This document shows, in pieces, positions 11,493-25,222 of a DNA stretch of 64,000 nt (position 1 is its first letter; every line of letters begins with the position of its first letter). The position numbers and the translations under genes were made by a program. Under the pieces are notes generated by a model, which did no database searches, had not been told where the DNA came from, and saw only the letters and a program-made list of their open reading frames with translations. Origin of the DNA: Gracilimonas sp. (GTDB lineage Bacteria; Bacteroidota; Rhodothermia; Balneolales; Balneolaceae); NCBI RefSeq assembly GCF_040218225.1, contig NZ_JAVJQO010000002.1:496001-560000 (forward strand), read 5' to 3'.

Positions 11493-11582
11493 ATTTTTTC
11501 CCTTCTATATGTTTGCGAGACAAAGTTAAAAGATGCCTTACCAAAAGGTGAGTTTTTTCCATTCCTTTTTCGGCATTTTTGC
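11493..11582. repeat. Duplicated DUF420 upstream region
   Basis: Matches 9594-9690 with a few changes: both contain cttctatatgtttgcgag, caaagttaa and accaaaaggtgagtttttt in order. It is the promoter part of the partial duplication whose coding part is the pseudogene at 11435-11492. Whether it still drives transcription towards the left is unknown. Confidence 0.8.
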
Positions 11583-11709
11583 CAAATGTATACTATCTTT
11601 TCGGCCTCACATCATTAGGGTGTGACCAGAGTTTGGGTTAAACTATTTAGAACAGTTTTAAATAAAAGACTTTCCGTCCTTTTTCTTCAATTTAGATTGA
11701 AAAAATTGA

Positions 11710-11717
11710 TAGATTTG
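11710..11717 (+). promoter_or_regulatory. actA: Candidate -7 box for the act/cox operon
   Basis: TAGATTTG fits the TAnnTTTG -7 element and lies 59 bases before the actA start. A convincing TTTG -33 element at normal spacing is not visible. It is the best promoter candidate in the 190-base gap between the DUF420 remnant and actA. Confidence 0.35.
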
Positions 11718-11775
11718 CCCGGCTTCAGAACGGGAGCAATCCTGCTCTATACGTAAACTTAAATCAGCAATCTTT

Positions 11776-12423
11776 ATGGCGCAGATTTTCCCCAAGTGGA
11801 CAAATCAGGTTCCCCGAAAAATTTTAATTGGATTAATCGTGGTACTGAACGCAATTATTTTTGGTGTTTGGTACTTCTTCTCTCCAGAATATACTGACGT
11901 TGGCTACGCTCCGGAACAACCCGTTCCTTATAGTCACAAAATACACGTAGACCAACTTGGTCTCGATTGTCAGTATTGCCACACCAGCGTTTTCGACTCC
12001 AAGCAGGCAAATATCCCTGCCACACAAACCTGTATGAATTGTCACAACCAGGTACAAGTACAAAATCCAGAAAACCTTGAGCTTGTAAAGGAAAGCTGGG
12101 AGACCGGAAAAGCAATTGAATGGGTTCGTGTGCACAACCTGCCTGACTATGCTTATTTCAATCACTCTGCACACACCAATGTGGGTGTTGGTTGTGAAAG
12201 TTGCCACGGCAGAATTGATAAAATGGAAGTGGTGTATCAGTCTGAGCCGCTCAGCATGGGCTGGTGTTTGGATTGTCACCGCGAACCAGAGAAGTATATC
12301 CGTCCGGTTGATGAAGTTACAACTATGGGTTACCAGGTTGAAAACCAGTTAGAAATAGGCCGTGAACTGGTAGATAAAAAGAATATTCATGCTCCAACTT
12401 ATTGCCAGGGTTGCCATTACTAA
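11776..12423 (+). CDS. actA: Alternative complex III subunit A, pentahaem cytochrome c
   Basis: Multihaem subunit of alternative complex III, the quinol:cytochrome c/oxidoreductase that replaces the bc1 complex in many Bacteroidota. One N-terminal membrane anchor (about residues 16-35) is followed by a periplasmic domain with five CxxCH haem sites: CQYCH (65-69), CMNCH (86-90), CESCH (140-144), CLDCH (164-168) and CQGCH (210-214). Extra histidines (YSHKIH, YFNHSAH) can act as distal ligands. It is the first gene of the respiratory operon, and its TAA overlaps the actB ATG (TAATG). Confidence 0.96.
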   Translation: MAQIFPKWTNQVPRKILIGLIVVLNAIIFGVWYFFSPEYTDVGYAPEQPVPYSHKIHVDQLGLDCQYCHTSVFDSKQANIPATQTCMNCHNQVQVQNPENLELVKESWETGKAIEWVRVHNLPDYAYFNHSAHTNVGVGCESCHGRIDKMEVVYQSEPLSMGWCLDCHREPEKYIRPVDEVTTMGYQVENQLEIGRELVDKKNIHAPTYCQGCHY

Positions 12424-15400
12424 TGAATGATTTAGAATCTACAGATCGACAGATGAGTGAAGAAGTGAAAGAAACTACGTATTGGAAGAGTTTAAACGAA
12501 CTAGCCAATAATAAGGAATACCAGAAATTTGCTGAACGCGAGTTTCCTGAAAACGCCACCGAACTTTCGGATGGTGTTTCACGTCGTGGATTTTTACGTG
12601 TGATGGGAGCTTCTGTAGCTCTGGCCGGACTCGCCGCTTGCCGCCGACCGGTTCAAAAAATTCTTCCTTATTCCAAGCAGCCTGAGGATGTCGTTCCCGG
12701 CGTACCTTTATATTATGCAACAGCAATGCCGGTTCAGGGTAACCTGGTTGGTTTGATTGCTGAGAACCATGAAGGCCGCCCTACCAAGCTGGAAGGTAAT
12801 GACATGCACCCGGCCAGCCGTGGCGGAACCAGCATTTATAATCAGGCAGCCATTCTTGGGCTTTACGATCCTGATCGGTCCAAGTCACCTTTATATAATG
12901 GTAATAAATCTACCGCTGCTGACTTTGAAGCATTTGCCAACTCTCATTTCGCAAATACTGGTCAGCGCATTGCCTTTATTTCTGAAGCAAACTCCTCTCC
13001 TACTTATAATAACATCAAGGAGCAGGCGCTTTCGAAATTTAACAATGCAACCTGGGTTACCTACGAGCCTTTCGGTGAAGACAATATATTAGAAGGTAAC
13101 CGGATTGCATTTGGCGGCCGGTTAAGAACCCACTACAATTTTGAAAATGCAGATGTCATCGTTTCTCTGAATGATGACTTCATGAGTTCGACACATCCAA
13201 ATAATGTTGAATACGCTAAGCAAGTATCCGGCCGACGAAAAGTAACCGGCACTGATGGCGAGATGAACCGAATTTACTCAGTAGAGGATTCATTCTCGCT
13301 CACCGGTTCTTATGCGGATCACAGACTGAAGATCAAAGCCAGCCAAATGGAGGCATTTACCTACGCCCTGGCTGCTGCACTTTCAACCCGTATTAATGGA
13401 CTGAGTGCGTTCAATGGTTATACAAATGAATTTTCTGATCACAAGTGGATCACTGTTCTTGCTGACGAACTGGCTGCTAATGCCGGACGTTCTGCGCTTT
13501 CTTTGGGAAGCCAGCATAAGCCTGAAACACATGCCGCTGTTGCAGCTATCAACCAAGCTTTAGGTAATGCGGGCAACACCGTTCATTATTTAGAAGTACC
13601 GCATCTTGACGAGCAAAGCAGCAACCGGGCTTTTGCCAATGTTGTTTCTGAAATGAAAGCGGGTAACATCGACACCGTTGTAATGGTTGGTGTGAACCCG
13701 GTATTTACCGCACCAGCTGATCTTGACTTTGAAAATGCCCTCTCTAATGTTGAAACTGTAGTCAGCCTATCTGACTATGTGGATGAGACTTCCAAAAAAG
13801 TAAATTGGCACGTTAATCGTGCACACTTCCTGGAAGCATGGGGAGACGGATACTCTTTTGGCGGAGCACGTTCTGTGATTCAGCCACAAATCCGACCACT
13901 ACATGAAGGTCTGAGTGAAATTGAGTTTTTAAATACTATCGTATCCGGTTCTATGACTTCCGGCTATGATCTGGTACGAAATACCTTCCGCGGATATTAC
14001 CGATCCGGTTTTGATAATCGATGGACTAATATCCTGCATGATGGAATTGACACAACCGGCAACTTCAATGAAGTCAATGTTCGGTTAAGCTCAGGTTTTG
14101 CCTCTGCAATGAACCGTGCTACCTCGAATGTAACTTCAACTTCGGGAATGGAAGTCGTTATTCGTCCCGATGCTACATTATATGACGGCCGTTATGCAAA
14201 CCTTGGCTGGCTTCAGGAACTGCCTGACCCAATGACGAAAGTTACCTGGGATAACGTAGCTCTTATGAGTCCTGCTACAGCAAAAAGCTTAGGGATTGAA
14301 GAAGCCAGTGCCGGACAAGATGATTATGATGTTGTAGAAATTACTGTAAATGGCAAAACGATCAATATTGTAGCCTGGATTCAGCCGGGACATGTTGACG
14401 ACGCCATTACCCTAACCACTGGTTATGGGCGAAAAGGAATTGGCCGTGTTGCCAGTTCTTACATCGATTATACCGCTGGCGGCGTGGATGTGTATCCACT
14501 CAGAGGTACAAGCAATATGCTGTATGCTTCCGCCAACGTTTCCAAGACCGGTGATACCTACGAAATTGCCTGTGTTCAGGATCATCACAGCCTTGAAGGA
14601 CGAGATATGTATCGTCAGGCTTCGATTTCTGAATACAAAGAAAACCCAGACTTTGCTTCCTTTGCTTCGGTTCATACCTATGAAGTTCCCGGAATGAAAG
14701 AAGCCGAAGAAATGGGCGAAGATCAGCCTATCTCTCTCTTTGACGAGCAAACCTATCCCGATTACGAACCACAATGGGGAATGGCTATCGACCTGAACTC
14801 CTGCTTTGGTTGCGGAGTTTGTGTGATTGCTTGTCAGTCTGAAAACAATATCCCCGTTATAGGGAAAAAAGAGGTGAAACGCGGCCGTGAGATGCACTGG
14901 ATCCGTAATGACCGCTATTATGTAGGTGATGATGCTGATTCACCACAAGCGGTTCATCAACCAGTTCCTTGTATGCACTGTGAACTCGCACCTTGCGAGC
15001 AGGTTTGTCCTGTTGCGGCAACAACCCACAGTGACGACGGTATGAACCAAATGACATATAACCGCTGTATCGGTACTCGTTACTGCGCAAATAATTGTCC
15101 TTACAAAGTTCGCCGTTTCAACTTCTTCAACTATCCAAAAGAATATATAACCTCGGGCGACGATCCTGATATCATCCAAATGGCGATGAATCCGGAAGTA
15201 ACCGTTCGTTTCCGTGGTGTCATGGAAAAATGTACGTATTGCGCTCAGCGCGTAAATCGTGCAAAAATTGAAGCCAAGAACAAAACCGGTTCACCTAAAC
15301 CAGCAGATGGCGCTGTTAAAACTGCTTGTCAGCAAGCATGTCCTGCCGATGCCATTTACTTTGGTGATTTAACCGACGATAACAGCGAAGTTGCGAAAAT

Positions 15401-15503
15401 GAAGCGCAATGAGCGAAACTTCCAGATGCTTGAGGAGCTTAACACGCGTCCGAGAACATCTTATATGGCTAAACTTACGAATCCAAACCCGGCTTTGGCT
15501 TAA
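12423..15503 (+). CDS. actB: Alternative complex III subunit B, molybdopterin-oxidoreductase-like with Fe-S domain
   Basis: Large peripheral subunit (1026 residues). The ATG at 12423 overlaps the actA stop and is preferred over an upstream TTG. A twin-arginine-like motif SRRGFLRVMG (about residues 53-62) is followed by a hydrophobic stretch ending in AAC, so it may be Tat-exported and lipid-anchored. The middle 600 or so residues resemble molybdopterin oxidoreductases; in known ActB proteins this domain binds no molybdenum. The C-terminus is a ferredoxin-like domain with four cysteine clusters: CFGCGVCVIAC, CMHCELAPCEQVCP, CIGTRYCANNCP, and CTYC paired with CQQACP. It relays electrons from ActC to the cytochromes. 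The actC gene follows after 27 bases. Confidence 0.95.
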   Translation: MNDLESTDRQMSEEVKETTYWKSLNELANNKEYQKFAEREFPENATELSDGVSRRGFLRVMGASVALAGLAACRRPVQKILPYSKQPEDVVPGVPLYYATAMPVQGNLVGLIAENHEGRPTKLEGNDMHPASRGGTSIYNQAAILGLYDPDRSKSPLYNGNKSTAADFEAFANSHFANTGQRIAFISEANSSPTYNNIKEQALSKFNNATWVTYEPFGEDNILEGNRIAFGGRLRTHYNFENADVIVSLNDDFMSSTHPNNVEYAKQVSGRRKVTGTDGEMNRIYSVEDSFSLTGSYADHRLKIKASQMEAFTYALAAALSTRINGLSAFNGYTNEFSDHKWITVLADELAANAGRSALSLGSQHKPETHAAVAAINQALGNAGNTVHYLEVPHLDEQSSNRAFANVVSEMKAGNIDTVVMVGVNPVFTAPADLDFENALSNVETVVSLSDYVDETSKKVNWHVNRAHFLEAWGDGYSFGGARSVIQPQIRPLHEGLSEIEFLNTIVSGSMTSGYDLVRNTFRGYYRSGFDNRWTNILHDGIDTTGNFNEVNVRLSSGFASAMNRATSNVTSTSGMEVVIRPDATLYDGRYANLGWLQELPDPMTKVTWDNVALMSPATAKSLGIEEASAGQDDYDVVEITVNGKTINIVAWIQPGHVDDAITLTTGYGRKGIGRVASSYIDYTAGGVDVYPLRGTSNMLYASANVSKTGDTYEIACVQDHHSLEGRDMYRQASISEYKENPDFASFASVHTYEVPGMKEAEEMGEDQPISLFDEQTYPDYEPQWGMAIDLNSCFGCGVCVIACQSENNIPVIGKKEVKRGREMHWIRNDRYYVGDDADSPQAVHQPVPCMHCELAPCEQVCPVAATTHSDDGMNQMTYNRCIGTRYCANNCPYKVRRFNFFNYPKEYITSGDDPDIIQMAMNPEVTVRFRGVMEKCTYCAQRVNRAKIEAKNKTGSPKPADGAVKTACQQACPADAIYFGDLTDDNSEVAKMKRNERNFQMLEELNTRPRTSYMAKLTNPNPALA

Positions 15504-15530
15504 GATATTAATCAGGAATACATCCAAAAC

Positions 15531-16958
15531 ATGAGTAAATACCAATACGTACCGGAACCCGCTCTTGTAAAAGGCGATCATGACTTTTCGAGCCTTACGA
15601 GACTGATTACCGATATAAATTTACGCCCTACTCCAAAAGCATGGTACTTGTGCATGATCGTTGCCAATGCCCTGCTCTTTGTTATGGTTGCCGCCATTGG
15701 CTACCTGATCTGGGAAGGAACTGGAATTTGGGGGCTTAATAATCCCGTTGGATGGGGTTGGGCCATCATTAACTTTGTATGGTGGGTTGGTATTGGTCAT
15801 GCCGGAACCCTGATTTCTGCGATTTTATTTCTCTTCCGACAAGATTGGCGTACAGCCATTAACCGTTTTGCGGAAGCGATGACCATTTTTGCCGTAATGT
15901 GTGCCGGGGTATTTCCTGCTATCCACGTTGGTCGTATCTGGGTGATTTACTGGGTATTCCCAGTTCCAAACTCAATGGCGATGTGGCCAAACTTCAACTC
16001 TCCCCTTCTTTGGGATGTGTTTGCTGTTTCTACCTATTTCACCGTTTCCCTGTTGTTCTGGTATGTGGGACTTGTTCCTGACCTTGCAACTATCCGTGAC
16101 CGGGCTACCGATAAAATCAGAAAAGTGGCTTACGGTATTTTCTCTCTGGGATGGACCGGTTCAAACCGCCACTGGTGGAATTACGAGAAAGCTTATATGA
16201 TTCTGGCCGGACTAGCTACTCCTCTGGTACTTTCGGTTCACACCATTGTATCCTTTGACTTTGCCGTTTCTATGATTCCGGGATGGCACACCACTATTTT
16301 CCCTCCTTATTTCGTTGCCGGTGCTATTTTCTCCGGTTTTGCCATGGTGCTTACCCTGATGATTGTTGCCCGCAAGATCTACGGAATGAAGGACATTATG
16401 ACCGATGATCACATGGAGAAAATGAATATTGTGATTCTGGTTACCGGTTCCATGGTAGGCTTTGCTTACATGATGGAATTCTTTATCGCCTGGTACAGTG
16501 GCGTTGAATATGAAAAAGCGATTTTTATTCTGAGAGCAACCGGGCCTTATGCATGGGCATACTGGGCTATGATGACTTGTAACGTGTTGTCTCCTCAGTT
16601 CTTCTGGTCAAAAAAATTACGCCGCAGCGTTGGCTTCACCTTCTTCATCTCCATTGTGGTGAACATCGGTATGTGGTTCGAACGATTTGTAATTACGGTA
16701 ACTTCACTGGCAAACGATTACCTGCCATCAAGCTGGGATTATTATTCCCCAACTATCTGGGACGTATTAACTTATGTTGGAACATTTGGTCTGTTTTTCA
16801 CCATGTTCCTGCTGTTCCTGCGCTTCCTTCCAATGGTTGCCCTTGCAGAAATTAAAGCTGTAATTCCTTTGGCTGATCCTCACAACTATGACGAAGAAAC
16901 CAAAGAATTTGAAGCTCCAAAAGTAGAAGTACCGAAACCTCAAGCTGAGAAGGTTTAA
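15531..16958 (+). CDS. actC: Alternative complex III subunit C, NrfD/PsrC-like
   Basis: A 475-residue polytopic membrane protein of the NrfD/polysulfide reductase C family, with about ten helices. It is the quinol-binding subunit of alternative complex III and passes electrons to ActB. The start ([18 protein letters not shown]) and the [19 protein letters not shown] segment are typical of ActC. The C-terminal tail ([11 protein letters not shown]) is charged and disordered. It sits between actB and actD with short spacers. Confidence 0.95.
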
Positions 16959-16962
16959 GATT

Positions 16963-17508
16963 ATGAGTACAACAGAAAAGAATGATTTATACGGCATTAT
17001 AGCCGAGTTCAAAAATCCAAAAGAACTGATTGATGTTGCCAAAACAATGTCAAAGTCAGGATTCAGCAAGTTCGATACCTTTAGTCCTTTCCCGATTCAC
17101 GGAATGGATAAAGCTATGAAGCTGAAAAAATCCAAGCTTGGTTGGATTGTACTGGGTCATGCTTTTATTGGTTTTTTCGGCGCACTGGCAATGATGTACT
17201 TCATGGCGGTTATGGATTATCCAATGAATATCAGCGGAAAACCATTTTTTAACGCTCCGGCCTGGGTGCCAATCACTTTTGAATTAACGGTACTTTTATC
17301 CTCTTTTGGAGCTGTTTTTGGGATGTTTTTCTTAAACGGACTCCCAAGACTTAACAACCCTCTTTTCAACGTTGAGCGATTTAAGAAAGCTACTGATGAT
17401 GGTTTCTTTGCCTGTATTGAAGCTGAAGACGATATGTTTGAAGCTGGTAAAGTGAAGAAATTGTTTGAAGAAGCCGGTGCTACTCACATTGAGGAAGTTT
17501 ATGAATAA
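16963..17508 (+). CDS. actD: Alternative complex III subunit D (DUF3341)
   Basis: A 181-residue DUF3341 protein with two membrane helices (about residues 60-83 and 102-124) in an otherwise soluble fold. The first part (YGIIAEFKNPKELIDVAKT) and the LPRLNNPLFNVERFKKATDD segment are characteristic. In the known complexes ActD is a structural subunit without cofactors. It begins five bases after actC, and its end overlaps the actE start by eight bases. Confidence 0.94.
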   Translation: MSTTEKNDLYGIIAEFKNPKELIDVAKTMSKSGFSKFDTFSPFPIHGMDKAMKLKKSKLGWIVLGHAFIGFFGALAMMYFMAVMDYPMNISGKPFFNAPAWVPITFELTVLLSSFGAVFGMFFLNGLPRLNNPLFNVERFKKATDDGFFACIEAEDDMFEAGKVKKLFEEAGATHIEEVYE

Positions 17509-18541
17509 GACGAATACTCAAATATCATTTCCAGGAATGAACATTAAAGGAATGTTTAAGATTGCGGGCATTTTTGCGCTCGGAATCACTCTTTCGGCCT
17601 GCCAGGGACAGCTTTCTGAAAAGCCTCCTATTCACCCAAATATGAATATGGACCAGCAGCCAAGAAAAGAAGCACAAGAGGAAAATAACTTTTTCGCCGA
17701 TGGACGCTCTATGCGTCAGCCGGTAGAAGGAACCGTTGCAAGAGGTTTAGCTAAAACCGATCGTGCCTATTATGAGGGTGTCGATGAAAACGGAGAGTTT
17801 ATTGATTATATCCCCGTTGATCTGACCAAATCATTCCTTTACCGCGGGAAGGAACGCTACGAAATTTATTGCACACCTTGTCACGGACAAACCGGTGCCG
17901 GAGATGGCATAATCATGGAAGGAAATTACGGATACGTTCCTGCTCCTTCTTATCATGATCAAAGGGTAAGAGATTTATCGGATGGGGAATTGTATTCAGC
18001 TATTTACAACGGTGTACGAACCATGCCCTCTTATTCTACTCAGGTTCCTGTTGAAGACCGATGGGCGATTGTTGCTTACATCCGTGCCCTGCAAGAAAGC
18101 CAGAATGTTACTGAACAGGAAATTCAGGAATATCCGGTTGACCTGTCTGCCCTTCAGGAAGAATTCACCAAAGAAAAAGCACGACAAGATTCTATTACAG
18201 CTACACGGGCTCCTAAAGATGCGCCTCAACCAACCGTCGACCTTGGTAAAGAAGTAATTACAGCTAACGGCTGTGCGGCCTGTCATAATGAAGATGGTGC
18301 ACCCGGTGGTATTGGACCAACATGGGCCGGACTGTTTGGTAGCGAAGGTGAGGTAATAACTGCCGACGGTGAAACAATCACTGTTACTAAAGATGAAGAT
18401 TATATCCGTGAATCAATTGTTGCCCCTGAAGCGAAGAAACCTGTGGATTATGCACAGGGAGTGATGGCTTCTTACAGCTACCTTGCTGATCATGAAATTG
18501 AAGCCATTGTGCTTTACATCAAAAATTTATCTGAAAACTAA
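17501..18541 (+). CDS. actE: Alternative complex III subunit E, two cytochrome c domains
   Basis: A lipid-anchored periplasmic cytochrome c. The ATG at 17501 overlaps the actD stop; an internal ATG at 17537 (MNIKGMFKIAGIFALG, lipobox LSAC) gives a neater signal peptide and could be the true start. Two haem sites are present: CTPCHG in the first domain (about residue 124) and CAACHN in the second (about residue 258). ActE is usually described with a single haem. The second domain closely matches the C-terminal cytochrome domain of CoxB in this operon: both share IGPTW-GL-GSE and DYIRESI/NYIRESI. The extra domain may speed transfer to the oxidase. Confidence 0.93.
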   Translation: MNKTNTQISFPGMNIKGMFKIAGIFALGITLSACQGQLSEKPPIHPNMNMDQQPRKEAQEENNFFADGRSMRQPVEGTVARGLAKTDRAYYEGVDENGEFIDYIPVDLTKSFLYRGKERYEIYCTPCHGQTGAGDGIIMEGNYGYVPAPSYHDQRVRDLSDGELYSAIYNGVRTMPSYSTQVPVEDRWAIVAYIRALQESQNVTEQEIQEYPVDLSALQEEFTKEKARQDSITATRAPKDAPQPTVDLGKEVITANGCAACHNEDGAPGGIGPTWAGLFGSEGEVITADGETITVTKDEDYIRESIVAPEAKKPVDYAQGVMASYSYLADHEIEAIVLYIKNLSEN

Positions 18542-18566
18542 GAACTTTGCTTAATACACTTACACA

Positions 18567-19763
18567 ATGAGTCATAAGCCTACAATAACAGATTCTTTAC
18601 AATTCCCAGCCGACAGCAAAGTTCCTCGTGCCCTTTTCGGTGTTGGTGCCGTTGGCCTGATTGCCAGCCTTATTGGTTACTTTTTAGATGCTGACCAGTT
18701 TTTCTTTTCATACCTGGTTAGTTTTGTCTTTTTTACCGGAATTGCTCTTGCAGCTCTTTTGATGGTAATGTTGCATCATATCACTCGCTCTTCATGGGGT
18801 GTTCTGGTGCGAAGAATTTCTGAATCTTTTACTGCTAACATCTGGATATGGGCGATCTTTGTGATTCCGGTAATACTCGGAATTCATAACCTTTACCATT
18901 GGAGCCATGAAGATGCTGTAATGGCCGACAAAATCCTCAAAGGAAAATCAGCTTACCTCAATACCCCCTTCTTCATTGCCCGTCAGTTTATCTACTTCGC
19001 AATCTGGGGATATTTAGGTTATAAACTCCACAAGGTTTCTGTAGAGATGGACAAAACTAATGACTGGGGTTTGACCAGCCTGCTTCGAAAAGTGAGCGCC
19101 CCTGGTATTCCTTTGTTTGCCCTGTCTATTGCATTCGCAAGTTTCGACTGGTTGATGTCGCTTGACCCTCACTGGTTCTCTACCATGTTTGGCGTGTATT
19201 TCTTTTCTATTAGTTTCCAGGCTTTTTGGCCAATCATGATTCTGCTCATTTTCTTTATGCAGAGTAAAGGCATTCTTAAAAACACCATCCGACAGGTGCA
19301 TATTTATGATTTAGGAGCATGGTTCTTTGCTTTCACTGTATTCTATGCATACATCGCGTTCAGTCAGTTTTTGCTGATTTATTATGCGAATTTACCCGAA
19401 GAAACTTTATGGTATTTCCACCGCCTGGAAGGTAGCTGGAAGTACATTGCCTACAGCTTGTTGATTTTCCGTTTTGCACTGCCATTCCTGGTTCTTTTAA
19501 ATCGTGAAGCCAAGAAGAATCGAACTGTTTTAGGTATTGTATCGGCAATAGTACTCATTATTCATTTTGCAGAAATCTACTGGATTGCAATGCCGGTCTT
19601 GTTTAAGCATGGCATTCACTTCAGCTGGATGGATATCACTACTTTCCTTGGACTGGGAGGTATTTTCTTTGGACTGTTCTTCAACAAATTCAAGCAACAC
19701 GATATGGTTCCGAAGAACGATCCAAAACTGGAAGACTGCCTCTCCAAATCGTATCACCAATAA
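18567..19763 (+). CDS. actF: Alternative complex III subunit F
   Basis: A 398-residue NrfD-like membrane protein with about ten helices, the second large membrane subunit of the complex. Recognisable parts are the VPRALFGVGAVGLIASLIGY start, MLHHITRSSWGVLVRRISES, and SFDWLMSLDPHWFSTMFGVY. In studied complexes ActF is thought to contribute to proton movement rather than quinol binding. It lies between actE and the HTH/transmembrane gene. Confidence 0.94.
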   Translation: MSHKPTITDSLQFPADSKVPRALFGVGAVGLIASLIGYFLDADQFFFSYLVSFVFFTGIALAALLMVMLHHITRSSWGVLVRRISESFTANIWIWAIFVIPVILGIHNLYHWSHEDAVMADKILKGKSAYLNTPFFIARQFIYFAIWGYLGYKLHKVSVEMDKTNDWGLTSLLRKVSAPGIPLFALSIAFASFDWLMSLDPHWFSTMFGVYFFSISFQAFWPIMILLIFFMQSKGILKNTIRQVHIYDLGAWFFAFTVFYAYIAFSQFLLIYYANLPEETLWYFHRLEGSWKYIAYSLLIFRFALPFLVLLNREAKKNRTVLGIVSAIVLIIHFAEIYWIAMPVLFKHGIHFSWMDITTFLGLGGIFFGLFFNKFKQHDMVPKNDPKLEDCLSKSYHQ

Positions 19764-19775
19764 TCGAATTTACCG

Positions 19776-20306
19776 ATGTCAGAAAAGTATAGCTCAGAAT
19801 TTAAAGCAAAAGTAGCACTCGAAGCTGTTGCACAAGGGCGTTCTGTAATTGAGAAGATCGCTCAAAAGCATAACGTTTCAGAAGATGATGTAATTGAATG
19901 GGCAGCTCAGCTTCAGGATGAAGCTTCTCAAATCTTCACGACCGAATCGGCCCATACGGATGAAGGTGACGTTGAAGAAGTTGATATCACGACCGAAGAC
20001 GAAGAATTTGCCGGTGCTGTTGAGCACGGTGTAATGAGTGATACACTCAATTACAACAAATTGATATTTTGGTCTACCCTTGGGACCGCACTCGTTGTTA
20101 TTTTTGTTATCGGTTTAGTTTATTTTTCTCAATACAGCCTTTTTGAAACACAAAAACAGGTTTCAAGCCAAAGCACCTTTTCAGAAGTAAAAGAATTAAA
20201 AGCTGAACAAGATCAAGAGTTGAACAGCTTTGGAGTTGTTAACCTTGAGGAAGGTATTTACAGAATTCCTATTGACAGTGCTATTAGTAAAATAGCCACA
20301 GACTGA
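19776..20306 (+). CDS. Transposase-type HTH domain fused to a membrane anchor, respiratory operon member
   Basis: A 176-residue protein with three parts. Residues 3-54 (KYSSEFKAKVALEAVAQGRS, then IAQKHNVSEDDVIEWAAQLQ, ending EASQIF) follow the N-terminal helix-turn-helix of IS3-type transposase OrfA proteins almost position by position. Residues 61-78 are an acidic linker. Residues about 96-118 form one membrane helix, with the HTH predicted in the cytoplasm. The periplasmic tail ends in GIYRIPIDSAISKI, a pattern I associate with small proteins near oxidase genes. There are no transposase catalytic residues and no inverted repeats nearby, so it is not an active element. Position after actF suggests an ActG-like subunit or a membrane-tethered regulator. 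Function unknown. Confidence 0.85.
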   Translation: MSEKYSSEFKAKVALEAVAQGRSVIEKIAQKHNVSEDDVIEWAAQLQDEASQIFTTESAHTDEGDVEEVDITTEDEEFAGAVEHGVMSDTLNYNKLIFWSTLGTALVVIFVIGLVYFSQYSLFETQKQVSSQSTFSEVKELKAEQDQELNSFGVVNLEEGIYRIPIDSAISKIATD

Positions 20307-20320
20307 CAACCATCAACATT

Positions 20321-21151
20321 ATGAGACGTTTTACACTGTTAGCAATTAGCTTGCTTGCAGTGTTTCTGAGTTCACAATCTGCCAATGCGCAGGTAAATCG
20401 TGAAACACCGGATGCGCTGCAAGATCTCGGTATCGATGAACATCTGGGAGATTTTATCCCTCTTGATGCCAAGTTTGCTACATCAAAAGGTGACAGTGTT
20501 GTTCTGGGTGATTTACTGGAGGAAGGAAAACCTGTTTTATTGAACCCCTTATACTATGAATGCCCTATGTTGTGCGGCCTGGTAATTGATGGGGTAATAA
20601 ATGTTGTTGATGAGCTGGCCTGGAAACCTGGCAAAGAATTTATTGTGATTTCAATCAGTATCGACCCACAGGAAAATGCTGAACTGGCAGCGAAATCGAA
20701 AGAAAATTACCTGTCCGGAATGGATTCCACCACTAAAGCCGGGTGGCATTTCCTGACCGGTAAAAAAGACCAGATTGACAAGGTAATTGAAGCTGTTGGA
20801 TTTGAATACAAAGAAATTGAAAAAACCGGAGAGTTTGCCCACAGTGCGGCAATCATGCTCCTGAGTCCGAAAGGAAAGATAACCCGTTATTTGTACGGCA
20901 TCTCCTACGACTCATTCAATGTTCGCAGTGCCTTATATGAATCTGCAGATGGAAAGATTGGTAACACCGTCGACAAACTGGTGATGTACTGTTATCAATA
21001 CGATCCGGATTCCGGCAGTTATGCGCCGGTAGCAATTAATATTATGAAGCTTGGCGGCTTGGCTACACTGATTATTCTCGGTATATTCCTCGGCGTGCTT
21101 TGGCTTCGCGAAAAACGCAAAAAACCAACCTCAAAAACTGAATTTAACTAA
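20321..21151 (+). CDS. SCO1/SenC copper chaperone for the oxidase
   Basis: A periplasmic thioredoxin-like protein that delivers copper to the CuA site of cytochrome oxidase subunit II. It has a signal peptide (residues 1-23, ending ANAQ), the copper-binding CPMLC motif at 81-85, and the downstream His in GEFAHSAAIM. An unusual C-terminal membrane helix (about 238-262, LGGLATLIILGIFLGVLWLR) anchors it, as often found in Bacteroidota SCO proteins. Its stop overlaps the coxB start (TAATG), in line with a role in CoxB metallation. Confidence 0.94.
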   Translation: MRRFTLLAISLLAVFLSSQSANAQVNRETPDALQDLGIDEHLGDFIPLDAKFATSKGDSVVLGDLLEEGKPVLLNPLYYECPMLCGLVIDGVINVVDELAWKPGKEFIVISISIDPQENAELAAKSKENYLSGMDSTTKAGWHFLTGKKDQIDKVIEAVGFEYKEIEKTGEFAHSAAIMLLSPKGKITRYLYGISYDSFNVRSALYESADGKIGNTVDKLVMYCYQYDPDSGSYAPVAINIMKLGGLATLIILGIFLGVLWLREKRKKPTSKTEFN

Positions 21152-22095
21152 TGGGCAGTTTATTCGATTTTATGCTCCCGGAGCTTAAATCTCCGATGAC
21201 GGGAGCAAGTACCGATGCGCTGATGGCATTCATCCACATCGTCAGTTTTATTATTCTTGCCGGTGTCACCATTGCAATGATTTACTTTGCAATCAAGTAC
21301 AAGCGCAAATCAGAAGACGACAAAACACCTCTTATTACCCACAACAACACCCTGGAAATTACCTGGTCGGTAATTCCCCTTTTACTGGTATTTGTTGTAT
21401 TTGGATGGGGATACAAAGGCTGGCTGAATCTTAAAACCGTACCTGATAATGCCTACGAAATTCAGGTTTCTGCCTACAAGTGGGGCTGGACATTCAAATA
21501 TGAAACCGGAGCTCAGGTTGGTAATGAAGTACATGTACCTGCGGGTCGGCCTGTGAAATTGGTAATGCAGTCTCAGGATGTACTCCACTCCTTTTTTGTA
21601 CCTGATTACCGAATCAAGCACGATGTACTGCCCAACCGTTATACTTATGTCTGGTTTCAGGCTGAAGAACCCGGAGAGTCACAGGTTTTCTGTACTGAAT
21701 ATTGCGGTACCTCCCACTCTGATATGTTGGCTAAAGTTATTGTTCACACCGAAGAAGACTTTCAAGCCTGGCTAGATGAGCAAGGAACAGGTGGTGGCGG
21801 AACTCCCGTTGAACGCGGCGAACAGCTTGCTACTTTACAAGGTTGTGTAACTTGTCATTCCGTAGATGGCTCTGACAAAATAGGACCCACCTGGCAGGGA
21901 CTGTATGGCAGCGAGCGTCAAATGGAAGACGGCTCTACAGTTACTGCCGATGACAACTATATCCGAGAGTCTATTCTTGATCCAAGCGCAAAACTTGTTG
22001 AAGGATATCAAAACCAAATGGTTAGCTATGAGGGTCGCCTTAGTGACGACGACATCTCCGACATTATTGAATACATTAAAACGTTAGAAGAATAA
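21151..22095 (+). CDS. coxB: Cytochrome c oxidase subunit II with fused cytochrome c domain (caa3 type)
   Basis: Two membrane helices (about residues 27-48 and 69-90) precede a cupredoxin domain with the CuA motif [12 protein letters not shown] (C-x3-C-x3-H-x2-M). A C-terminal cytochrome c domain follows, with haem site CVTCH at about 232-236. The fusion defines a caa3-type oxidase that receives electrons from ActE or a soluble carrier. A Gly-rich linker ([10 protein letters not shown]) separates the domains. The haem domain is a close relative of the second domain of ActE. Confidence 0.96.
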
Positions 22096-22096
22096 C

Positions 22097-23848
22097 ATGG
22101 CAACAGCTGAAGTAACACCTTCCTCTTCAGGGAACGTACGAACATTAAAAGTAAAGCGGTTTAAGCCGTCAGAAGATCCCAAAAACACTTATCTGACCGA
22201 TGAAAAAGGTCTTTGGGCATGGATGACGACCGTAGATCATAAGAAAATCGGGCTTATGTATTTAGGCTCCGTTGCTTTCTTCTTTCTGCTTGGCGGCGTG
22301 CTTGCACTCTTACTCAGGACCGAACTTCTTACACCGGCTAAAACCTTTATAGAAGCTGACACTTACAATCAGTTTTTTACCCTGCACGGTGCCATTATGG
22401 TATTCTTTGTGCTGGTTCCATCAATACCTGCTGCCTTAGGTAACTTTGTGCTTCCCATGCAGCTTGGAGCCAAAGATGTGGCTTTTCCAAGGCTTAACTT
22501 AGCCAGTTTTTATATTTATGTGATTGGTGCCATCTTTACTTTCATCGCTCTTGCGAACAACGGACTTGACACAGGCTGGACGTTCTATACTCCTTACAGT
22601 ACAACCTCATCATCCAGTGTGATTTGGGTAACCCTGGGAGTCTTTATACTTGGATTTTCATCTATTTTAACTGGTACAAACTTTATTTCTACCATCCATA
22701 AAATGCGAGCTCCCGGTATTACCTGGGGTAAGCTGCCGCTGAATATCTGGGCGCTGTATGCAACCAGTATCATTCAGGTATTGGCAACTCCGGTATTAGC
22801 TATCACACTTTTACTTCTTACGATGGAGCGTTTCCTGGGAATTGGGATCTTTGACCCTGCCCTTGGTGGTGACCCCGTACTGTTCCAGCATTTCTTCTGG
22901 TTCTACTCACACCCTGCGGTATATATCATGATTGTACCGGGTTTTGGAATCATTTCAGAAGTAATCACCACCTTTTCCAAGAAACATATTTTTGGATACT
23001 GGGCGATTGCGCTTTCATCACTCGCTATTGCCTTCATTGGTTTCCTCGTTTGGGGACACCACATGTTTACCTCAGGTCAGTCTGCCGTAGCAACTACTGT
23101 TTTCTCATTCCTTACCTTCCTTGTAGGTATCCCAACCGGTATTAAGATTCTGAACTGGATTGCTACGCTCTACAAGGGGTCAATTGAGATGAAAACCCCT
23201 ATGATTTATGTGTTCATCTTCTTATTCCTATTTTCAATTGGCGGATTTACTGGAATTATGTTGGGCGCTCTTTCAGCCGACATTCACCTGCATGATACCT
23301 ACTATGTAGTAGCTCACTTTCACTATGTGATGATGGGTGGAACGCTGATTGCCCTGCTTGCCGGACTCCACTACTGGTGGCCTAAGATGACCGGCAAGAT
23401 GTACAACGAGTTTCAGGCTAAAATTGGATCTGCACTTATTTTCATCGGCTTCAATATGACCTTCCTCCCGCAGTTTATCATGGGATCACAGGGAATGCCA
23501 CGACGATATTACAACTACATCGATCAGTTCACCGTATTCCACCAAACTTCAACTATTGGATCTTACATCCTTGGAGTTGGCTTCTTACTTATTGCATATT
23601 ACCTGTTTGTATCATTATTCAAAGGTGAGAAAGCCGGTTCAAACCCATGGGGAAGCCGTGGACTGGAATGGCAGGCAACTTCACCACCAGACTTCCACAA
23701 CTTCGATCATACACCAGTTGTAATCAACGGACCGTATGACTACCACAAGCCAATGGAAGAATTTCAGCTTGGACTTGCAGACTCACATAACGGTCATGAT
23801 CCAAGTCATGAAGCAGTTGCTGCTAAGCAAAAAGTAGAATCCAACTAA
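22097..23848 (+). CDS. coxA: Cytochrome c oxidase subunit I, A2 subtype
   Basis: Catalytic subunit with 12 or more membrane helices, containing the low-spin haem and the haem-CuB centre. Ligand motifs are visible: [11 protein letters not shown] (helix II His), [10 protein letters not shown] (CuB His with its cross-linked Tyr), WGHHMFTSG (the two CuB His) and [14 protein letters not shown] (haem ligands). The YSHPAVY sequence, in place of GHPEVY, marks the A2 subfamily of haem-copper oxidases, where Tyr-Ser stands in for the D-channel glutamate. Length is 583. It starts one base after the coxB stop. Confidence 0.97.
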
Positions 23849-23883
23849 AAATTTAAATTCAAACAACACAACTCGGGAAGTAA

Positions 23884-24534
23884 ATGGCGAATCATTCGAC
23901 TTCACACCCCACACATGTGCAGCATCACTTTGTTGACGCCGATCAGCAATTTGATACCGCAAAAATGGGTATGTGGGTGTTCTTGGTAAACGAAATCCTA
24001 TTCTTTGGCGGATTATTCTGTGCTTATATCATCTATAGAGCATGGTATCCTGAACTATTCACGGAAGCAGCACTCGAGCTTAATACCTTTTGGGGAGCCG
24101 TAAACACAGTGGTTCTGATTGGTAGTAGTTTAACCGTTGCAATGGCGATTCGGTCTGCTCAGAAAGACCAAATGAAAGGTTTAAAACTCAATCTTCTATT
24201 TACAATCGGTCTGGCAGTCATCTTTATGGTGATTAAAGCTTTTGAGTATGCTCATAAATTTGAGATGGGAATCTTTCCTGGTGAATACTATACCTATGAA
24301 GGTCTTGAACATGCACAAGCGGCCATCTTCTTTAGTATTTATTACATGCTAACCGGAGTTCACGCTCTTCACGTGCTGGTTGGAATTGGACTTATTTACT
24401 GGATTTATCTCCGTGCGAAGAAAGGAGAATTCAGCAGTGAATATTATACCCCCGTTGAGATTACCGGCCTTTACTGGCACTTGGTTGACCTCATCTGGAT
24501 CTTCCTGTTTCCACTCCTATATCTCATTGAATGA
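23884..24534 (+). CDS. coxC: Cytochrome c oxidase subunit III
   Basis: A 216-residue membrane protein with five helices, shorter than the seven-helix type of mitochondria, as usual in caa3 oxidases. Recognisable parts are [19 protein letters not shown], the [20 protein letters not shown] helix and the end [18 protein letters not shown]. It stabilises subunit I. The N-terminus is His-rich ([12 protein letters not shown]), which might bind metal. Confidence 0.95.
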
Positions 24535-24580
24535 CAGAGATTGATACTATCACCACCTAAGAACTTAGAATACAGATATT

Positions 24581-24898
24581 ATGAGCGCACATAATCACGA
24601 ACATCACGTTTCTACAGCAGGCCAGCTTTGGGCCGTTGGTACCGCACTACTATTCCTTACTATATTAACCGTAGTATTTGGGAAATTTGTAGCTATTCCG
24701 CCTCCATTTGATGTCATCACTGCGATGAGTATTGCACTTGTGAAGGCATTTTTAGTAGCGGCATTCTTCATGAACCTGTACTGGGATGTCAAATTTAATG
24801 CCATGTTGCTTATTATGGCGGTTTGCTTCTTCCTGTTAATGGTTATCATTACCCTGTTAGATACCATGTATAGAAACGATGTGGTTCCCTCATTTTAG
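24581..24898 (+). CDS. coxD: Cytochrome c oxidase subunit IV
   Basis: A 105-residue protein with three membrane helices, of the prokaryotic COX4 type (AFFMNLYWDVKFNAMLLIMA is characteristic). It starts with a His-rich stretch (HNHEHHVS). It is the last gene of the operon, followed 24 bases later by a strong terminator. Confidence 0.9.
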   Translation: MSAHNHEHHVSTAGQLWAVGTALLFLTILTVVFGKFVAIPPPFDVITAMSIALVKAFLVAAFFMNLYWDVKFNAMLLIMAVCFFLLMVIITLLDTMYRNDVVPSF

Positions 24899-24921
24899 AT
24901 AGCCGGAACCTTCAAAAATTT

Positions 24922-24954
24922 AAAAGCCCCGTGCCAATCGTGCGGGGCTTTTTT
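24922..24954 (+). terminator. Terminator of the act/cox operon
   Basis: AAAAGCCCCG (24922-24931) pairs with CGGGGCTTTT (24943-24952) around an 11-base loop and is followed by a T-run. It lies just after coxD and ends the 13-kb respiratory operon. Confidence 0.9.
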
Positions 24955-24971
24955 ATTTACTGGTCGTTAGT

Positions 24972-25125
24972 TGTCATACTGAGCGGCACGATAATTAAAA
25001 GGCATTTTTTGCGGACGCGAAGAATCTCAAATTATATTAAACATCTTAACCTATACACTTCTGAGATCCTTCGCGCTAAACAGTTGTAGCTTGATTGAAT
25101 ATATTATGTGCTCAGGATGACAAGT
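24972..25125. repeat. Degenerate inverted repeat of the GTCAT family
   Basis: The left part reads gtcatactgagcg ... cgaagaatctc and the right part reads gagatccttcgcg ... ctcaggatgac, so the ends are inverted copies of the same motif with an AT-rich centre. The element fills the gap between the operon terminator and the MBL gene and contains no gene. Confidence 0.55.
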
Positions 25126-25222
25126 AAGGTTTCAATAACCATTTAACCTTGTAAATAAAGGTAGCTCATTCTGAATACTCTTCGCTGATTGTTATATTCA
25201 AATTGAACCAATAAAACTGTCC

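Follow-up and report, generated by a model that had tools for sequence, protein, structure and literature searches.

What is a transposase-type DNA-binding domain doing in the middle of a respiratory operon? Within the window (the whole stretch of 64,000 nucleotides analysed here), a 176-residue protein opens with a helix-turn-helix (HTH) resembling that of IS3-type OrfA proteins, continues into a membrane anchor, and has its gene in a series that comprises actA-F, sco and the genes for oxidase subunits. An earlier note on this DNA had proposed a transposase fragment taken over as a respiratory component, either as an ActG-like subunit or as a membrane-tethered regulator. The relevant features, all on the forward strand, are these:

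11776..18541, + strand: actA, actB, actC, actD and actE, upstream (Pfam matches to multihaem cytochrome, Fe-S, NrfD, ActD and cytochrome c).
18567..19763, + strand: actF, membrane subunit of alternative complex III (tblastn finds the actF of locus L149, which is PDB 6f0k_F).
19776..20306, + strand: actG, HTH-ActG fusion, 176 aa, ATG to stop (open reading frame list; orthologues in 84 of 92 Balneolaceae genomes).
19782..19940, + strand: N-terminal HTH_Tnp_1 (OrfA-like) domain, residues ~3-55 (Pfam for residues 3-50, AlphaFold2 model).
19875..19916, + strand: would-be DNA-recognition helix, residues 34-47 (VSEDDVIEWAAQLQ), acidic (charge comparison).
19941..20036, + strand: acidic linker, residues 56-87 (sequence; low pLDDT at 56-70).
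20037..20306, + strand: ActG core, with a hydrophobic stretch at 97-115, a predicted helix at 93-150 and the segment GIYRIPIDSAI at 160-170 (alignments, hydropathy, model).
20321..21151, + strand: sco (Pfam SCO1-SenC).
21151..24898, + strand: oxidase subunits II (with a cytochrome c domain), I, III and IV (domain matches).

The gene is as tightly placed as had been claimed: it starts 12 bp past the end of actF, sco starts 14 bp past its own end, and the order actF-actG-sco was seen at every surveyed locus where all three genes were found. At 1e-5, neither Pfam nor NCBIfam had a model matching the actF of the window. In a consensus scan of 11500-25200 for terminator-like stems, the longest (13 pairs) lay at 24922, past the oxidase genes, and the remaining 21 sites had 5-8 pairs each. 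No orfB with a catalytic domain adjoins actG, its 3' neighbour being sco, and within 19300-20800 no inverted repeats of at least 12 nt flank the gene, in agreement with the earlier note; the repeats detected lay within actG or 1 kb apart. As an observation on the same operon, ActE (17465-18541) has an additional cytochrome c domain at its C-terminus, which shares 44% identity with the one in oxidase subunit II (21151-22095) across 100 aligned positions. In R. marinus, ActE carries a single haem (PMC5928083); the extra domain may have arisen by duplication within the operon and may supply one more haem between the two complexes.

The membrane and periplasmic part of the protein is ActG itself, and the window protein is an orthologue of this seventh subunit of alternative complex III (ACIII): it is encoded directly after actF, has a single membrane helix and carries a homologous YRIPID core. 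The reference for this assignment is R. marinus (genome G166), whose ActF is identical over 417 residues to chain F (ActF) of PDB 6f0k, so that the gene following it (L149) is, by position, R. marinus actG. That gene encodes 130 aa with the same membrane helix and the segment GVYRVPIDRAM (an RVPID motif). The two proteins thus agree in gene position behind actF, in having a single membrane helix and in the R(I/V)PID segment near the C-terminus, but the R. marinus form has no N-terminal domain, whereas the window protein has about 55 extra HTH residues. The acidic linker, single membrane helix and RIPID motif described in the earlier note are all present, and its suggestion of a respiratory component holds in that the core is ActG, following actF as in R. 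marinus. Downstream of the ACIII cluster of that organism, too, lies an oxidase gene cluster (PMC5928083). According to the same paper, ActG was detected by mass spectrometry in the purified complex, the structure contained no density for it, and the authors judged the subunit not essential for catalysis. Melioribacter has act genes, but the authors of PMC3534657 found no actG homologue in it.

A profile of the ActG core also matched PDB 8k9e chain G, one name of which is ActG; the match runs through LNSYG...IPIDRAM, at E 0.001 overall and 0.0029 for the best stretch. The ActG of 8k9e, 8k9f, 8x2j and 9ilt, structures that we take to be from Chloroflexus, shares the LNSYG...G..IPID.A segment with the window protein; with 112 aa, the 8k9e-type ActG is too short for such an HTH plus core, and only its C-terminal 48 residues aligned. 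Across the class, ActD was found in 226 of 244 genomes and the HTH-ActG alignment matched in 201 of 244, a count in which at least one match (G099) is a transposase-like frame and the weakest were taken unchecked. Of 247 genomes sampled from the phylum, 66 were found to contain the ActG core, and six of these 66 belong to other classes.

The reading of the N-terminus as a transposase-type HTH was borne out by a significant match of residues 3-50 to Pfam HTH_Tnp_1 (PF01527; E 4.4e-6; 27.3 bits, the cut-off being 24.1), which, with the hydrophobic stretch at 97-115 and the flanking actF and sco, gives the arrangement that had been described. NCBIfam models for the IS66 accessory TnpA (1.6e-5) and an IS3 transposase (0.0023) also matched, each under its own cut-off. 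A PDB search with the window protein alone returned no match at E 10, and the window's genome contained no HTH_Tnp_1 match besides ActG at E ≤ 0.1. Among the 61 aligned HTH-bearing ActGs of the family, 42 matched HTH_Tnp_1 individually at E ≤ 0.01, making it by far the commonest Pfam match of these domains (the next HTH family had 8); the other 19 missed this threshold alone and have the HTH placed by alignment only. In a scan of 89 family genomes, ActG exceeded the Pfam cut-off in 25, with 8 further ActGs below it. A chance match was ruled out by this recurrence across orthologues. Two other kinds of family protein with related matches are recorded here in their own right. One is a 660-aa PAS-HisKA_2 histidine kinase (L086:1477-3459, on G019:C4) whose N-terminus matched HTH_28 (E 9.3e-5) and HTH_Tnp_1 (E 0.0033), each below its cut-off, a second non-transposase protein of the family with such an N-terminal domain. 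The other is a 723-aa protein, a putative RecQ helicase as read from its sequence, with an HTH_Tnp_1-like match late in the chain; its two loci, L120 and L121, lie near both ends of G061:C1, perhaps overlapping ends of a circular chromosome.

The fusion is family-wide and not a single oddity. Taking as HTH-bearing any family ActG of 158-195 aa, we found the HTH form in 71 of the 84 ActG-bearing genomes (92 searched) and in 15 of 19 scorable genera; the 84 leave out G099, whose sole match is a transposase-like frame of 97 aa (raw tally 85 of 92), and include G058, whose 39-residue ActG fragment at a contig end was scored neither way. Twelve family genomes have a short ActG without the HTH (G002, G009, G011, G012, G013, G021, G057, G060, G061, G097, G100 and G101), two belonging to the same genus as the window. 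Elsewhere in the order, ActG was found in 30 of 36 genomes from other families, with matches starting at residue 43 or later of HTH-ActG, and the HTH was absent from all 11 of these that were read. HTH-less relatives thus exist, as the earlier note had allowed, but its accompanying idea of a recent insertion fails because 71 family genomes have the domain; a recent insertion element was likewise ruled out by the family-wide orthology together with the lack of an adjoining orfB and of flanking repeats. Separately, one genome (G078) gave three ActG matches (C37, C130 and C52), one near a contig end, perhaps reflecting several act operons or a mixture of strains.

On an ActF tree (110 rows, quick method), which did not resolve the unity of the family itself and left out near-duplicate loci (L008, L010, L023 and L138) and loci that broke off with less than 290 aa of actF, every HTH row fell in the family and the HTH label needed five changes. 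The name Balneolaceae for this family is based on matching named Gracilimonas records that the tree places in the window's genus; one strain with the fusion is G. mengyeensis DSM 21985 (L002). The simplest history is one early gain followed by several losses. A loss is well supported for the G002/G009 pair because it nests inside the window's genus (forks 96 to 99), and in genus g10 two HTH forms are nested among HTH-less ones, making a regain there possible. When the N-termini of the HTH-less family forms were compared with shuffled sequences, leftover HTH similarity was seen at ≤8 of 200 shuffles in 6 of 12, against none of 11 outgroup controls; the outcome depends on the threshold, with 6 of 12 against 3 of 11 at 15 of 200, and 9 of 12 against 3 of 11 at 25 of 200. 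This threshold-dependent test gives a hint of internal deletion of the HTH in G002, G009 and G011.

Structure prediction from the 61-member alignment (AlphaFold2) gave helices at 7-20, 22-31 and 36-58 and a long helix at 93-150, in a model of middling quality (mean pLDDT 68.8, pTM 0.26). Hydropathy showed a single hydrophobic stretch, residues 97-115, in the window protein. Foldseek found no match to the model at E ≤ 0.001. The top row from VIA was 2rn7, the Shigella TnpE protein (Z 6.7, 3.0 Å, 54 residues), tied with many other HTHs, so that only the common HTH fold is indicated. As for the side of the membrane, of the 72 HTH forms 60 have more K and R before the membrane stretch than after it, 2 have fewer and 10 are tied, which favours a cytoplasmic HTH. 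The side is certain for no ActG, and ambiguous outside the family, because the window protein is itself a tie, short ActGs of other families are split (7 richer before against 6 richer after, of 17) and FN3-bearing ActGs, which have a fibronectin type III-like domain at the N-terminus, run in the opposite direction (3 against 7 of 14). The HTH-less ActGs of the family gave 6 against 1 of 11.

The HTH is kept by purifying selection. Pooled pN/pS values for the domain were 0.177, 0.277, 0.095 and 0.166 in genera g1, g23, g6 and g26, compared with 0.160, 0.079, 0.115 and 0.101 for the ActG core, all calculated from changes counted between close pairs, which are not independent; the protein is therefore under constraint, which is looser in the HTH than in the core in three of the four genera. 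Three positions are near-invariant across 15 genera: K10 (65 of 67 ActGs), A17 (65 of 67) and W42 (66 of 67).

What has changed is the charge of the recognition helix, the helix with which an HTH reads DNA. Over residues 34-47 its mean net charge is -1.91 in 67 ActGs and +1.87 in 15 OrfA-type proteins of the family, a small set chosen from 26 loci by their match to the ActG-HTH profile. The helix is negative in 56 ActGs, zero in 9 and positive in 2, and its mean is positive in none of the 15 ActG genera, compared with a positive helix in 12 of the 15 OrfA-type proteins. Position 43, beside the near-invariant W, is K or R in 73% of OrfA and 0% of ActG sequences, and acidic residues occupy position 37 in 61% of ActG versus 7% of OrfA and position 38 in 52% versus 0%. 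Some contact with DNA may yet occur, since ActG keeps K or R at position 40 (31%, versus 20% in OrfA) and at position 44 (36% versus 27%), has K at position 31 in 48 of 67 proteins, and has a less acidic helix 2 (mean charge -0.16, versus -1.2 in OrfA). Overall, the acidic character of the presumed DNA-reading helix suggests that the domain was recycled as a docking part and not as a gene switch.

A second line of evidence comes from outside the family. Of 20 loci read at class level, picked by score and frame length and not at random, 14 (L139-L148 and L155-L158, all in other families of the class) have ActGs 247-314 aa long in which the N-terminal domain is a different one. The model of one such protein, built from a 14-member alignment, contains a confident beta-rich domain at residues ~11-110, for which Foldseek matched 75 PDB chains at E ≤ 0.001; all of the top five, whose E-values run from 1.3e-5 to 1.0e-4, bear the name fibronectin type III (FN3). 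The Pfam fn3 model itself was weak, with E 0.09 in one of two FN3 forms scanned and no match in the other. These proteins resemble the window protein in having the same core, an extra N-terminal domain and, where found, a place between actF and sco; they differ in that the domain is a fibronectin-III-like sandwich and not an HTH. With the bare form, one ActG core therefore occurs in at least three N-terminal states, and the simplest reading of ActG is that of an adaptor that uses its N-terminal module for protein contacts specific to each lineage.

Given these observations, we consider it moderately probable that a captured transposase-type HTH on ActG now serves as a protein-contact or assembly module of ACIII and not as a DNA reader. 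An in-frame fusion early in the history of the Balneolaceae would have placed the 5' portion of an IS3-type orfA, or a gene descended from such an orfA, ahead of actG. The resulting three-helix HTH would lie in the cytoplasm, tethered by the acidic linker to the ActG membrane helix, with the conserved YRIPID segment on the periplasmic side together with the complex. It would have been retained as a folded protein-protein contact that aids assembly or stability of ACIII or of an ACIII-oxidase supercomplex, and would have given up its DNA-reading function. Counted against this docking role are the 12 family genomes that do without the domain, the absence of ActG density from the R. marinus structure, the 19 ActGs whose HTH misses E 0.01 alone, the basic residues kept at 31, 40 and 44, the tied flanking charge of the window protein, the middling model and the actG-less Melioribacter.

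The other half of the earlier proposal, a membrane-tethered transcription regulator of the one-component type whose HTH binds DNA at the membrane and signals the condition of ACIII or the oxidase, is a less likely possibility than a docking module, and we think it improbable. The layout is that of ToxR/CadC-type regulators, with an N-terminal HTH, one membrane helix and a periplasmic tail; those regulators differ in using winged HTHs. The probable cytoplasmic position of the HTH in a single-pass protein, the selection on its fold, the basic residues that roughly a third of ActGs keep at 40 and 44 and most keep at 31, and the VIA tie of 2rn7 with many DNA-binding HTHs all speak for such a regulator. 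A recognition helix that is acidic or neutral in 65 of 67 proteins speaks against it, as do the 12 HTH-less family genomes that keep actF-actG-sco and the FN3 domain that another branch has at the HTH position. A contact or assembly module fits better because the positive charge has been lost and an unrelated domain sits at the same position; the ActG-like half of the proposal thus stands and the regulator half is less supported.

Could the domain instead be a tolerated passenger, weakly useful (for example as an N-terminal stabiliser) and with no specific partner? Its patchy occurrence within the family, including a loss inside one genus, and its low identity among genera would suit such a role, but the pN/pS of the domain, 0.10-0.28 across four genera, and the near-invariance of K10, A17 and W42 over 15 genera argue against it, and we regard it as unlikely.

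The protein-contact reading also involves a transposon source, and here the closest sequences at hand are OrfA-like. When the ActG-HTH profile was run against the 26 HTH_Tnp_1 loci of the family, a small set picked for matches to that model, the top two were OrfA-like proteins (L112, 44 bits; L109, 40 bits), both with F(K)..KV..EALKE and a W placed as in the ActG HTHs. OrfA-type HTH_Tnp_1 proteins, of which 2rn7 and 2jn6 are presumably solved examples, share with ActG the YS.EFK start, the near-invariant W and the length of the first 50 residues; the ActG domain differs from them in its acidic recognition helix, in having no adjoining orfB and no flanking repeats of at least 12 nt, and in being joined to a membrane subunit. 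We infer that a transposon source is likely, though not proven because the tree of 49 domain columns is poorly resolved, separating the ActG HTHs from the rest by a branch with a support of only 52, and because profile matches in the PDB are scattered among HTH folds, with homeodomains, a sigma factor and Cgl2762 (2jn6) scoring about equally and none below E 0.02. The same two results are what would favour derivation from another homeodomain-like HTH family that merely scores best against transposase models; the prevalence of HTH_Tnp_1 over the next HTH family among the Pfam matches and the OrfA-like hits of up to 44 bits, if from a small HTH_Tnp_1-chosen set, count against this, and it seems to us quite unlikely. 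Least likely, and very doubtful, is an exchangeable ActG adaptor (no domain, FN3 or HTH) whose HTH still reads DNA or a nucleoid partner, linking the ACIII-oxidase supercomplex to transcription of its own operon.

No report of an HTH-ActG fusion was found among the matches listed in the literature searched, which included few subscription journals. The bare, FN3-bearing, HTH-bearing and HTH-lost ActGs form a natural comparison for the function of the N-terminal side of this subunit. For the Balneolaceae, the finding looks like a bacterial transposase-type DNA-binding domain that has been kept family-wide, with its DNA-facing charge removed, in a core energy-conserving complex.
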